The position numbers were made by a program, and so were the translations under genes. 22,777 nt of DNA, taken from positions 1 to 22,777 of IMG/VR virus record IMGVR_UViG_3300020474_000129; one strand, 5' to 3'. The DNA comes from a virus. Under the pieces are notes generated by a model. The model was not told the DNA's origin. It did no database searches and saw nothing but the letters and a program-made list of their open reading frames with translations. Positions 8,501-16,127 of the stretch are shown one piece after another. How positions within the stretch are numbered: position 1 is the first letter of the stretch; each line of letters begins with the position of its first letter.

Positions 8501-10732
8501 ATGAACTACGGGGACGGCTTTAAGCAAATACTTGAGGCTGCGAAAGATCGCAGAGGTGATAGCTCCACTGATACGATGATCGTAGCTTCGCATCTCTCAC
8601 AGATGCGGACATTTATCTTACGTCGTGGCCTTGAGTTCTACTGTGATCAAGATAGTTACGGTAAACGGAAAGAGTTTCTAGCGAAGATATATAGCGATAA
8701 TATGCTGGAGATGAAACTCGACAGCATTGTTGACTACTTCTTGTGTGACGGACAAGGATTGTTCTATTTCCGCCCCTCCGGTGACACCTATCAGCTGCTG
8801 TACTTCCCTAAGGACAGATATAGGTGCTATCGCAATCAGATGGGCGAGATTGACAACGTAGTGCTGGTCTACAGTTTTGGTGTCAAAGGTAAGGATCAAC
8901 TGGCTGGTATGTACGCACAGCCCAACAGCCGTGGCGGTAAGAAAAAGTATATCAAGCTGAGTGTATTCAAAGATCGTATTGAGCAGACTGTCAGTGACGA
9001 GAAGATAAACTTTGAAGATGAAAACCCCCTAGCTACTTCCAATATGCAGGGGCAGACAGAGACGCTAACCAACTCCCTTGGTTTCATCCCTGCTATTGAG
9101 GTATTCAATCACCTTGATTGCACAGGTGAATCAACAGGTCGTGGTGAGTTTGACTGGCTCTCACATCAGATTCTGTATCACGACGAGCTGGTGCGGAACA
9201 TCCGTAAGAACATGAAGTTCTTCGGCAACCCCACACTCCTATCTTCACGTCCTAAGCACGACATTGTCGAAAGTGGTGATGGAGAGAACGGAATGCGCCC
9301 GACGATCAGCTCACAAGCTGGCTTCAGGCCAATGTCTACACCCAACCAACCCTTCGGTGCCCCGTCTCCTATTGATGGGCAGATCAAAGTTCCTAGGGTG
9401 ATTGCAAACCTGGAGCCTACTGATCGTGTCAATTACTTAACTCCTGACAGTGTGTCAGGTGACCAGAACCTTTATGTCAAACAGTATCGCTCAGAAATTC
9501 GCTTGGCTCTTGGTGGTGTTGACGATATCGATATCAACACTGCGGCTACTGCCTATGAAATCAAAACCCTGTACGGACGGGTTGCAGCTACAGCTGAAAA
9601 GAAAGCCAAAGCTATGTTTGAGTATGGCTTATGTAAGCTGATGTCGATGATGATTCAACACGAAGAGTTTCTCTTTGAAGAATCATTTGCACAGGCTATG
9701 GGTCTAGTAAAACCAGAAGTCCCGTTGCCTGAAAACTTTGCAACGCCAGTTGAATATGAAGAAGCGATGCTTGCTTATAACGAACAGCAAGTGAAGTTTC
9801 TTGCAACTAGGGACGAAATGTTCCGTGTTAAACTTGAGGCAGGCGAGATCCCACCGGGGGTCACTGGCCTCATCCCTGACGGCAACACTAAAGTTAGTTG
9901 GCGTTGGACTGGGCAAGTATTTGAGGATGACAGTAATGACGTACTTCAGAACAGTATTGTTGTTCGTAACCTCCAAGAACTAGGTGTTGATTCAATCGAA
10001 GCACTTAAGTTCCTGTTCCCAGGTAAAACTGATGAGGAGAGAGCATCAATGCTTTCAGGCTATCCCTTCAGGATGGTTCAGCAAACACAACAGTCTTTAA
10101 ACCAATTTATTGGTCTTCTCGGCAACCTATATCAATTGCCTCATCCTCAGACACCAAACTTACCTTTGGCATCTGACCCAAATCTGGATATCACCGGATT
10201 CTTATACCGATCACTCGAATTCTTACGCAAGGAGTTAAGTTACAGTGGAACATACAAGTCAAGCAGCACCGACGATCGCCCAACCAAGCTCAGCGATGCC
10301 GACCGCAAGCGTGCCCAGCGCGGTCAGCCAACACGTGATGAGCGACCCGTCTCAATTCCAGGCATCAACGGTCCAACCCCAGGCACCTCAGGTGCAGGCG
10401 GCTCCGGTTTACCAACAGACAGCGGCTCCGGCAGCTCAGGGGAATCCATGGCAAGAAGCATTTCAGGCGCTGAGCGCAAGTCTGACTACGCCCAGCCAAT
10501 CCCAGGCCCAGGTACCGTACTCGGCTTACCAGACTCCAACACCACAGGCTCCTTCCCAAGCAGCTTGGGCTTCGCAAGCCCCAGCTCCACAGCACCAGTA
10601 TTCGGAAGCCCAGACATACAGTCCCCAAGCTTCAACCCAGGCGTATTCGGCCCAGGAAGTACAAGCCCTGATGGCGCAGCAGGCGGCAATGCAAAGCCAG
10701 CCCGCCGCTCCAGCCGTTCAAAGCGGAAGTGA
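8501..10732 (+). CDS. Portal protein
   Basis: The 743-residue product has features of a gp6-type portal, the dodecameric ring through which DNA enters and leaves the head. Seen: an N-terminal region with LRRGLEFYCDQDSYGKRK, a beta segment around LFYFRPSGDTYQLLYFP, a helical stem candidate (DELVRNIRKNMKFFG, about 227-241), and TAATAYEIKTLYGRVAATAEKKAKAMFEYGL (about 347-377), the usual long helix of portals. The core seems to end near residue 600. Residues 582-743 form a Gly/Ser/Pro-rich tail with a basic end (RRSSRSKRK), encoded in the region that also encodes the next gene in another frame. GC-rich, T-poor composition marks that stretch. The portal call is strong; the tail's use is uncertain. 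Confidence 0.85.
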   Translation: MNYGDGFKQILEAAKDRRGDSSTDTMIVASHLSQMRTFILRRGLEFYCDQDSYGKRKEFLAKIYSDNMLEMKLDSIVDYFLCDGQGLFYFRPSGDTYQLLYFPKDRYRCYRNQMGEIDNVVLVYSFGVKGKDQLAGMYAQPNSRGGKKKYIKLSVFKDRIEQTVSDEKINFEDENPLATSNMQGQTETLTNSLGFIPAIEVFNHLDCTGESTGRGEFDWLSHQILYHDELVRNIRKNMKFFGNPTLLSSRPKHDIVESGDGENGMRPTISSQAGFRPMSTPNQPFGAPSPIDGQIKVPRVIANLEPTDRVNYLTPDSVSGDQNLYVKQYRSEIRLALGGVDDIDINTAATAYEIKTLYGRVAATAEKKAKAMFEYGLCKLMSMMIQHEEFLFEESFAQAMGLVKPEVPLPENFATPVEYEEAMLAYNEQQVKFLATRDEMFRVKLEAGEIPPGVTGLIPDGNTKVSWRWTGQVFEDDSNDVLQNSIVVRNLQELGVDSIEALKFLFPGKTDEERASMLSGYPFRMVQQTQQSLNQFIGLLGNLYQLPHPQTPNLPLASDPNLDITGFLYRSLEFLRKELSYSGTYKSSSTDDRPTKLSDADRKRAQRGQPTRDERPVSIPGINGPTPGTSGAGGSGLPTDSGSGSSGESMARSISGAERKSDYAQPIPGPGTVLGLPDSNTTGSFPSSLGFASPSSTAPVFGSPDIQSPSFNPGVFGPGSTSPDGAAGGNAKPARRSSRSKRK
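10229..10234 (+). promoter_or_regulatory. AAGGAG ribosome binding site inside the portal gene
   Basis: AAGGAG lies 10 bases before the GTG at 10245. Most genes in this window lack a clear Shine-Dalgarno sequence, so a full one here supports the internal start of the overlapping scaffold-like gene. Confidence 0.65.
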
Positions 10733-12175: not shown

Positions 12176-13111
12176 ATGCCACAAAAAGGTACAGGCGATT
12201 CAGTTAGAGCTTATTTGAGAGATATCGGACGTATCCCACTTCTTGAACACGACGAAGAAATACTTTTAGGTCGCCAAGTTCAACAGATGATGAAGCTGAC
12301 GGATATGCAGAAAGAGCTGGAGCTTGATCTGCAAGGTGTAGCTGATGCGATGGAGATACCACTCAAACAACTTAAGCGGGAGATGCGTGATGGCAAGCGT
12401 GCGAAAGAAAAGATGGTCACAGCCAACCTTCGTCTGGTGGTGTCTGTTGCCAAAAAGTACACGAAGAGAAATATGGAACTCTTGGACATCATCCAAGAAG
12501 GCACGATTGGTCTCGTCCGTGGTGTTGAAAAGTTTGACCCTGGCCGTGGCTACAAGTTTTCTACCTACGCTTACTGGTGGATTCGTCAAGGGATCACACG
12601 CGCTATCGCGGAGAAAAGTCGAGCAATACGACTACCCATCCATGTTACTGAGAATCTCAACCGACTTAAGAAAGCCCAGCGTGAACTATCACAGCTGAAT
12701 GGACGTATGCCAACTGTTGCTGAGTTAGCAGTTGAACTCAACATTACTGACGACGAAGTCAAAGACCTGATGTGCAAAGCACGTCAACCAACTTCCCTCG
12801 AAATTAAAATCGGAGAGAATCGTGACACTGCTTTGGTTGATCTACTCGAAGATGAAACGCAAATACCAGAAGACATACTGGAAGCGATGTGCATCAAAGA
12901 AGATATCCGAGAGCTTATTGCTGACCTTCCTCAGATGCAGTCAAACGTTATTTCTATGCGTTATGGAATTGGAGATGAAATGTTGGAACCGATGTCAATG
13001 ACAGCTATTGGCCAAGTTTTGAATATGTCTCGTGACCGGGTACGCACACTGGAGCAGAAAGCGCTGAAAGCTTTGCGTGATAATTCTTCCGGGATCAGTG
13101 AATATCTCTAA
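12176..13111 (+). CDS. RNA polymerase sigma factor, cyanobacterial primary/group-2 type
   Basis: The 311-residue product directs RNA polymerase to promoters. Seen: region 1.2 (SVRAYLRDIGRIPLL, about 9-23), which in this form is typical of cyanobacterial RpoD-like sigma factors; region 2.1-2.3 (ANLRLVVSVAKKYTKRNMELLDIIQEG); region 2.4 (GYKFSTYAYWWIRQGITRAI, 125-144) with the -10-contacting Gln138 and Thr141 and the Trp134-Trp135 melting pair kept; region 3 (IRLPIHVTENLNRL); and region 4 (about 250-302). The -35 recognition helix reads SRDRVRTLEQKALKALR instead of the usual (T/S)RERVRQ(I/L)E, so the Glu and Gln that contact the -35 element are replaced by Asp287 and Thr291. No long non-conserved N-terminus is present, as in group 2. 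Probably acquired from a host. Confidence 0.95.
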   Translation: MPQKGTGDSVRAYLRDIGRIPLLEHDEEILLGRQVQQMMKLTDMQKELELDLQGVADAMEIPLKQLKREMRDGKRAKEKMVTANLRLVVSVAKKYTKRNMELLDIIQEGTIGLVRGVEKFDPGRGYKFSTYAYWWIRQGITRAIAEKSRAIRLPIHVTENLNRLKKAQRELSQLNGRMPTVAELAVELNITDDEVKDLMCKARQPTSLEIKIGENRDTALVDLLEDETQIPEDILEAMCIKEDIRELIADLPQMQSNVISMRYGIGDEMLEPMSMTAIGQVLNMSRDRVRTLEQKALKALRDNSSGISEYL

Positions 13112-14500: not shown

Positions 14501-14875
14501 CTATTGTAAATGATTTCTAGTCGACCATTTCAAATTATTTGCTGAACAGTCGGAACGATTACCGTTCTTGTGAGTAACTCCAGAGCAACCTTTGCTTCGC
14601 CCATAGGGTGTAGGTGATGGTCCTAAGAATGCAAGAGCAACAAGTTTATGAACATATACTGAGACTACAGTTTTGCGTCCAATACGCTGAGTCAAGTTGA
14701 CCGAGAGATAACCTTTCTTATTTATCTTCGGCTTTAAGATACGCTCTACCGCTCCCTTAGTGCTTTTAACCTGGCCATATTTGTTTACGTAATACTCTAT
14801 ACAGCACTCAAAACCAGGCAGGCTGTGGATTGGCTTCCACAGTCCTGTATCTACAAATTCCATTACCCCTAACAT
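14501..14875 (-). CDS. NUMOD4/HNH homing endonuclease
   Basis: The 124-residue product matches phage homing endonucleases: a NUMOD4-like N-terminus (LWKPIHSLPGFECCIEYYVN, about 12-31; YGQVKS; LKPKINKKGYLSVNL) and an HNH motif (VHKLVALAFLG, then VTHKNGNRSDCSANNLKW). The metal-site His of THKNG and the Asn pair are present; the usual acidic residue before the His is Thr here, and the protein stops soon after the HNH (STRNHLQ), without the DNA-binding NUMOD tail, so activity is uncertain. Such enzymes cut a site in related genomes lacking the insertion, spreading the gene. The likely target is the neighbouring capsid locus. ATG14875 and a start 12 bases in (MEFV) are both possible. Confidence 0.85.
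   Translation of the reverse strand: MLGVMEFVDTGLWKPIHSLPGFECCIEYYVNKYGQVKSTKGAVERILKPKINKKGYLSVNLTQRIGRKTVVSVYVHKLVALAFLGPSPTPYGRSKGCSGVTHKNGNRSDCSANNLKWSTRNHLQ
14503..14508 (-). promoter_or_regulatory. Minus-strand -10-like TACAAT before gene at 14477
   Basis: Reading the minus strand, TACAATAG overlaps the stop (CAA TAG) of the homing endonuclease and lies 25 bases before the next ATG, the same geometry as the plus-strand examples. Confidence 0.42.
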
Positions 14876-14978: not shown

Positions 14979-16127
14979 ATGTGGATTGATAATGATTTTC
15001 CGAAACTTCTTGGTGCAGAGCTTTATCGTCCCCACCCCGCCTACATAATTGAAATGGCGGTTGAACCAGTGGTGGTCCACGATTTCAGTAAGCAGCCCGG
15101 TCAGACAGTTCAGCTTGACCGCTATCGCTTCTGGGGCAAGCCTGGCACTAAGGAGTCCCGTGAGCGTACTGCTGACCAAACTCTTGGTACCTCCTCCGCA
15201 CGCAACATTGTGAAGGACAAGGTGCTGGTTACTCTTCGTGAGTACACCGGACCTGCAGATACCCGCGATTCCGCTCAGCCTTCAACCTTCAAGGTTGCTC
15301 GTGAGACCCTGATCACTGCTCAGCGTCTGCTTCTTGATACTGGCAACCTCAACGTCTTCCACCAGTCGATCGGAAGCTTGACTTTGCTTGATGACTACCG
15401 TCGCTGGCGCGATCGGGTGTTCGCTAACGAACTCCTGAAAGCCGAAGCAAATGGTGCTGCTGATAAAGAGCAAGGTGGTTACTACCTTCCCGGTGGTAAG
15501 GCCAAAGGTGGTTCCGGTGGAACCCTAGGTGTTACTTACGCCGCTGGTGAGTCCGCCAAGTTTGACATCACCACTGACCTTCTCGAAGTCGTCAAGGACA
15601 TGCGTAAGCGCAACGTCCCGACCTTCGCTGACGGTTACTACCGCTGCATCGTGGACCCTACCGCGATGATGCACCTGCGTCAGAATTCTGACTTCCGCGA
15701 GATTGCTCGCTACCCCGGCCAAGGCATGATCAACCCGATGCAGCCAAACGCCGCCCCTAACGCCAACTTCTACCAGGGAATGGGACCGGCATACGGTCAG
15801 GCTGGCTTTGTTGCCGGACAACCTGTGATGCCTACCGGCTTCCTGTTTGAAGGCGTTCGTTGGTTCGAGAGCACCAACCTCCCCGAGACTACCTACAACC
15901 TCGTGGTTACCGATAAGTCCAGCTCTGCTGCTGATTACGGCGCATCCCAGCTGGTCTTCTTTGGTCCTCAGGCAGTCGGCGTCGGCATCGGTGGAAACAA
16001 TGCTCAGATCCTTCTGAACAACAACGACGACTTCAGCCGCTTCATCATCATGATTTGGAGCCTGTTTGCTGGGTTTGAAGTTCTGAATAAGGACTTCATC
16101 ACTGTTGGTTACTCATTCGTTTATTGA
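14979..16127 (+). CDS. Major capsid protein
   Basis: The 382-residue product fits a HK97-fold capsid shell protein: an extended basic/acidic N-arm region (FSKQPGQTVQLDRYRFWG, about 36-53), a helical spine region (TFKVARETLITAQRLLLDTGN), a P-domain to A-domain stretch (YRCIVDPTAMMHLRQNSDF, about 222-240), the GFLFEGVRWFESTNLP segment (287-302) and a closing A-domain strand (QLVFFGPQAVGVGIGG). Its position after portal and scaffold-like genes agrees. Codons are strongly biased to C-ending forms (ggc, acc, cgc, aac), unlike most neighbours, as expected for a very abundant protein. GGAG lies ten bases before ATG. The next gene, 15 bases on, has its own AGGAG. Confidence 0.88.
   Translation: MWIDNDFPKLLGAELYRPHPAYIIEMAVEPVVVHDFSKQPGQTVQLDRYRFWGKPGTKESRERTADQTLGTSSARNIVKDKVLVTLREYTGPADTRDSAQPSTFKVARETLITAQRLLLDTGNLNVFHQSIGSLTLLDDYRRWRDRVFANELLKAEANGAADKEQGGYYLPGGKAKGGSGGTLGVTYAAGESAKFDITTDLLEVVKDMRKRNVPTFADGYYRCIVDPTAMMHLRQNSDFREIARYPGQGMINPMQPNAAPNANFYQGMGPAYGQAGFVAGQPVMPTGFLFEGVRWFESTNLPETTYNLVVTDKSSSAADYGASQLVFFGPQAVGVGIGGNNAQILLNNNDDFSRFIIMIWSLFAGFEVLNKDFITVGYSFVY

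Follow-up and report, generated by a model that had tools for sequence, protein, structure and literature searches.

An out-of-frame overlap between the portal gene and a probable scaffold gene in S-EIV1-like cyanophages

Can the last part of a phage portal gene encode, in another reading frame, half of a second protein? The question is raised by a viral DNA of 22,777 nt, IMG/VR virus record IMGVR_UViG_3300020474_000129 (hereafter the window, meaning this whole stretch), for which a preliminary description had reported a 488-base out-of-frame overlap between a portal and a scaffold-like gene at 10245-10732. We found these coordinates to be exact and the overlap to be real. The locus consists of the following features:

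8501..10732, + strand: portal protein gene, an ORF from ATG 8501 to TGA 10732, 743 aa
10245..11267, + strand: second ORF, putative scaffold, from GTG 10245 to TGA 11267, 340 aa
10245..10732, + strand: dual-coding overlap of 488 nt, evidenced by depressed synonymous divergence, conditional dN/dS and openness in 242 of 242 distinct relatives

Beyond the overlap, the second ORF continues for 535 unique nt past the portal stop. The base composition of the shared stretch (GC 0.58-0.63, with a negative GC skew and a positive AT skew) agrees with its earlier portrayal as C-rich and T-poor, and the low complexity ascribed to both products is likewise seen, as Gly/Ser/Pro in the portal tail and Ala/Gln/Ser/Pro in the second product.

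The portal gene product matches PHROG 20475 ('virion structural protein', head and packaging) with an E-value of 3e-177. Its sequence gave no Pfam hit, and a profile search of PDB sequences matched no solved portal. The proposed identity as a tailed-phage portal is supported by the predicted fold, as Foldseek returned 19 PDB matches at E ≤ 0.001 that were all phage portal or portal-tail chains, the best being P-SCSP1u (E = 4e-7), for a model that is itself of low confidence (mean pLDDT 47). According to this model, the portal fold would take up residues 1 to ~580, followed at 582-743 by a Gly/Ser/Pro tail that is mostly disordered and has a basic end. Over the part encoded by the overlap pLDDT is mostly 26-37, and a short predicted helix at residues 599-607 reaches 54-62.

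Two frames may of course be open by chance. In shuffles of the window sequence alone that preserved the portal frame synonymously, the second frame stayed open in 7-24% of cases, and as the corresponding p of 0.07-0.24 is high, openness in the window alone is weak evidence. The portal frame was open in 0.2-3.6% of shuffles of the second frame (p 0.002-0.04). When sequences were fully resampled and only the portal protein was kept, the second frame was open in 7% of them; with only the second protein kept, the portal frame was open in 0.08%. Relatives were gathered by scans of viral and genome contigs and form three clades, whose names were coined in this analysis: clade A, to which the window belongs, clade B (L235-238-like) and clade C (S-EIV1-like). 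The census holds 446 loci with both genes resolved, 242 of which are distinct. Every distinct locus has the overlap, with a length of 443-635 nt and in one relative frame, throughout the three clades and including the isolate S-EIV1. Openness becomes decisive only with these relatives, because both frames are open across the overlap in 242 of 242 distinct loci; chance, which the window sequence by itself would not reject, is rejected by the census. Neither a portal stop near residue 600 nor a disruption of either frame, the two observations named beforehand as counter-evidence, occurs in any of them. The overlap predates the split of the three clades found here.

Among the isolates of the phage collection, only Synechococcus phage S-EIV1 (KJ410740) is close, with a portal identity of 47.6%. 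As in the window, both genes are present in the identical relative frame, and the second frame opens at 59287 and overlaps the portal gene by 554 nt. No overlap is visible in the S-EIV1 record, where the start of the second gene is placed after the portal stop, and tblastn similarity in this gene begins upstream of the annotated start. Note that the gene, AHV82225.1 (L002, KJ410740.1 59287-60264), is made to start at 59863 in the record and is ~192 codons short.

Comparison of the relatives at synonymous sites, as the preliminary description had suggested, revealed depressed divergence in both frames of the overlap with respect to the non-overlapping parts. The observed/expected ratio in clade A was 0.14-0.50 for the portal frame and 0.33-0.83 for the second frame; the respective values were 0-0.56 and 0.22-0.72 in clade C, and in clade B the portal frame gave 0.17-0.36. 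For the portal frame (clades A, B and C) this corresponds to a drop of 2-7 fold; for the second frame (clades A and C) the drop reaches 3-5 fold. In addition we determined conditional dN/dS with an in-house, OLGenie-like count at ≥90% identity, in which each change is classed by its effect in both frames. The portal frame yielded 0.21 (0.10-0.35) for NN/SN and the second frame 0.14 (0.07-0.19) for NN/NS, while ratios that build on the few SS sites in the count are loose. As judged from these sequence comparisons, the two ORFs are real out-of-frame, dual-coding genes, with purifying selection acting on each frame given the other.

These data also bear on two readings in which a single frame of the overlap is real. 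According to the first, only the second frame counts and the portal frame is a functionless run-on tail, in line with the low complexity and predicted disorder of that tail and with a rate of amino-acid change ~1.5-3 times the portal average. We consider this extremely unlikely in view of the portal-frame dN/dS, of an openness expected in 0.08% of resampled sequences yet found in all distinct loci, and of the motifs Y-[AS]-G, P-x-x-G and G-x-x-D that are kept between clades in the portal tail along with its basic end. The second reading holds that the portal alone is real in the overlap and that the second gene starts downstream, just where the S-EIV1 record places it. It is barely conceivable next to a dN/dS of 0.14 for the second frame within the overlap itself, the conservation of the second-protein motifs NPWxxAF and TPTPQ across clades, tblastn similarity that reaches upstream of the annotated S-EIV1 start, and a Shine-Dalgarno (SD) sequence and start codon that are frozen inside the portal gene:

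10229..10247, + strand: AAGGAG Shine-Dalgarno sequence and GTG start inside the portal gene, where the portal codons AAG GAG TTA AGT TAC AGT GGA are frozen

The AAGGAG (10229-10234) lies 10 nt ahead of GTG 10245, and the rarity claimed for such a site was confirmed, as inspection of 26 gene starts of the window showed AAGGAG at this one only; as other SD-like sites, 16143 is preceded by AGGAG and the major head protein gene (14979) by GGAG. The arrangement of SD and start is common to 111 of 112 distinct loci. Six of the seven portal codons over the start are invariant in 96/96 and the remaining one, TTA, is found in 94/96. In clade A we find AAG in 126/126, GAG in 125/126 and TAC AGT GGA in 126/126, and the second gene starts with GTG in 126/126. 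Clade C carries CAA AAG GAG ATG AGT TAT GCA GGA in 62/62, which comprises an SD and an ATG start. In clade B the start, ATG (51) or GTG (3), sits in the homologous portal codons, as it does in the other clades. Any SD there is weak or missing altogether; the codons ahead of the start vary synonymously and the start itself stays. Since a strong SD is missing there, efficient initiation in clade B would rest on something else. Note that within clade B (e.g. L236, L439, L441) the ATG coincides with portal Tyr-Ala (TAT GCA) in the 51 cases and the GTG with Tyr-Ser (TAC AGT) in the 3. A search for an internal promoter of the sigma-70 type found none near the start.

From the conserved start and the SD frozen in two clades we infer that the second protein is made by internal initiation. 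Ribosomal frameshifting into the second frame, which would produce a portal-scaffold fusion instead, deserves attention because fusions by frameshift are common in phage structural operons. However, a second-frame stop stands 3-6 nt ahead of the start codon in nearly all loci and closes the entry from upstream, and the conserved elements are precisely a start codon and an SD, so that frameshifting appears very unlikely.

The constraint at silent sites does not end at the border of the overlap. Immediately upstream, two further features are found:

9938..10228, + strand: end of the portal fold with reduced synonymous divergence, codons ~480-576, non-overlapping, in all three clades
10181..10200, + strand: small RNA hairpin with a 7-bp stem (10181-10187/10194-10200) and a 6-nt loop, in clade A only

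In this block of ~300 nt the observed/expected ratio of synonymous divergence is 0.26-0.87 in clades A and C and 0.38-0.64 in clade B. Two explanations were tried and rejected for clades A and B: a hidden ORF, as no alternative frame is open, and the use of preferred codons, with CAI values of 0.758 vs 0.771 and 0.735 vs 0.795, respectively. A recombination tract may also account for the low synonymous divergence, with no cis element involved. Inside the portal gene, 28 nt separate the hairpin from the internal SD downstream of it. In clade A, 93.9% of cells are paired vs 88.4% in shuffles, and the alifold z-score is -7.4 with respect to column shuffles. The covariation score of 0.172 vs 0.084 in shuffles (0/500), with lower values in all slid controls, is carried by two variable pairs and is to be read with the relatedness of the sequences not fully controlled. 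A 3'-arm GGA is seen only together with a 5'-arm AAT. Clades B and C yielded no such hairpin, and an Rfam search returned a match at chance level only.

What, then, is the second protein? The gene order is terL - 440-aa gene - portal - second gene - ... - major head protein, so that the second gene is situated between the portal gene and the major head protein gene (14979-16127), with six intervening ORFs. Among the genes of this interval, an RpoD-like sigma factor is encoded at 12176-13111 (PHROG 351, E 3e-81), downstream of the putative scaffold gene and still within the head-gene module, and an ORF at 14501-14875 on the - strand, beside the major head protein gene, resembles by eye an HNH/NUMOD4-type homing endonuclease. 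Residues 1-162 of the second protein fall in the overlap and are rich in Ala, Gln, Ser and Pro, with a conserved NPWQEAFQALS helix in an alignment of 36 members; this first half is predicted to be disordered. The unique residues 163-340 are acidic, with a net charge of ~-18 on average in the clade, and mostly helical, with predicted helices at 184-241, 252-276 and 303-339. Scaffolds typically have just such a layout, with a low-complexity, disordered N-terminal half, an acidic, mostly helical part and short C-terminal helices. No match to known scaffolds was obtained by sequence family or by fold, nor in searches of PDB sequences, which says little because scaffolds diverge so far. The earlier assignment as a scaffold therefore agrees with position and composition and finds no counterpart in a sequence or fold match. 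We infer from position and composition that the second protein is probably a capsid scaffold, a name that, given the lack of a family or fold match, reflects its position and a general resemblance.

The most serious competitor accepts the overlap and questions this name: the second gene may encode an internal head or core protein, an ejection protein or another assembly factor. The lack of a scaffold family or fold match speaks for it, and the distance of ~3.7 kb to the major head protein gene, with six ORFs including a sigma factor in between, points in the same direction. On the other hand, the gene directly follows the portal gene, its product has the scaffold-typical succession of a disordered N-terminal half, an acidic, mostly helical part and short C-terminal helices, and no other small gene in the interval from the portal to the major head protein looks more scaffold-like by eye. 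A function other than scaffolding is thus unlikely, although it has to be taken more seriously than any of the alternatives that dispute the overlap or the mode of initiation.

In our judgment, the sequence data are best explained, with good confidence, by two head-morphogenesis genes of S-EIV1-like cyanophages that genuinely overlap in dual-coding DNA, the second of which probably encodes a scaffold produced by internal initiation. Translation of the second protein would begin inside the portal message, around portal codon 582 and in the other frame. With a strong internal SD, one message could yield more of the scaffold, needed in many copies, than of the portal with its 12 copies, and scaffold synthesis would take place close in time and space to that of the portal, its assembly partner. 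The portal tail, with its predicted disorder and basic end, could bind to the scaffold, which is acidic, or to packaged DNA. A more far-reaching version holds that the two disordered segments encoded in the overlap, one at the end of the portal and one in the first half of the scaffold, cooperate in procapsid assembly, and that the upstream block, with its hairpin in one clade, controls internal initiation as a cis element; this is a speculative extension that we rate as rather improbable. If true, the synthesis of portal and scaffold would be hard-wired at one locus across a large group of cyanophages.

Two known systems invite comparison. In phage lambda, the scaffold Nu3 arises from an internal start inside the head gene C, in the same frame, and shares sequence with the C protease. 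In phiX174 (Microviridae), gene B for the internal scaffold is located inside gene A, in a different reading frame and with its own internal start. The B protein is the internal scaffold of this phage, in which several genes overlap (PMC2935103). The locus studied here resembles Nu3/C in that a putative scaffold would originate from an internal start in a neighboring head gene, but it uses another frame and overlaps the portal gene; the distinction from Nu3 that had been drawn on account of the frame is therefore correct. With B/A it has in common a scaffold gene, in our case a putative one, that is out of frame with its neighbor and has an internal start of its own. Given gene B, the earlier statement that nested scaffold genes are known in the same frame is not correct as a general rule. 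However, B is wholly contained in the replication gene of a 5.4-kb ssDNA phage, whereas in the S-EIV1-like phages half of the second gene overlaps the portal tail in a tailed dsDNA phage. The portal/second-gene overlap consequently belongs to neither type, one sharing its frame and the other being fully nested in a replication gene. In the open-access literature we found no description of a dual-coding, out-of-frame overlap of portal and scaffold in a tailed phage.

Where conserved structural genes overlap out of frame over a long stretch, the viral genome is usually very small, whereas here the overlap is fixed in a widespread group of cyanobacterial viruses with large genomes. For a tailed dsDNA phage with a genome of 79 kb such as S-EIV1, pressure on genome size is a weak explanation. 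As exemplified by the S-EIV1 record, standard gene calling in these phages misses over half the length of a head-assembly protein. Hundreds of natural sequences make the locus well suited to the study of one DNA shared by two proteins, and the same sequences point to the silent-site-constrained block beside the internal start. The misannotation of the second gene in S-EIV1, the upstream silent-site constraint in three clades and the covarying hairpin of clade A are newly seen here.

It remains to consider which frame came first. The preliminary description held that the portal frame had run past an older stop and gained a new tail over an existing scaffold N-terminus, a history that our data do not favor over the reverse order. 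No family member without the overlap was found among the relatives. The one remote portal homologue that we found is ORF063 of Acaryochloris phage A-HIS1 (HMM E 1.3e-8 with eight proteins, tblastn E 0.04), a tail-less protein of 461 aa whose end corresponds, by eye, to about residue 520. It differs from the window in overlapping the next gene by only 4 nt, and a scaffold-like ORF066 is separate and without similarity to the second protein described here; A-HIS1 is too remote to be informative about the second gene. Because this homologue ends where it does, the portal tail looks derived in the S-EIV1-like lineage. A tail-less portal in A-HIS1 would fit a derived tail and, equally well, a scaffold gene whose start moved upstream into an older tail. 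Codon usage is an established criterion for the polarity of overlaps (PMC8227390). In clade A the RSCU correlations are 0.055 and -0.08, both frames being atypical, and as both correlations are near zero they give no verdict on polarity. The portal frame is the closer of the two to the usual codon usage in 96/96 loci of clade A and 59/65 of clade C, again with both correlations near zero, which leans slightly toward the portal frame as the older one.
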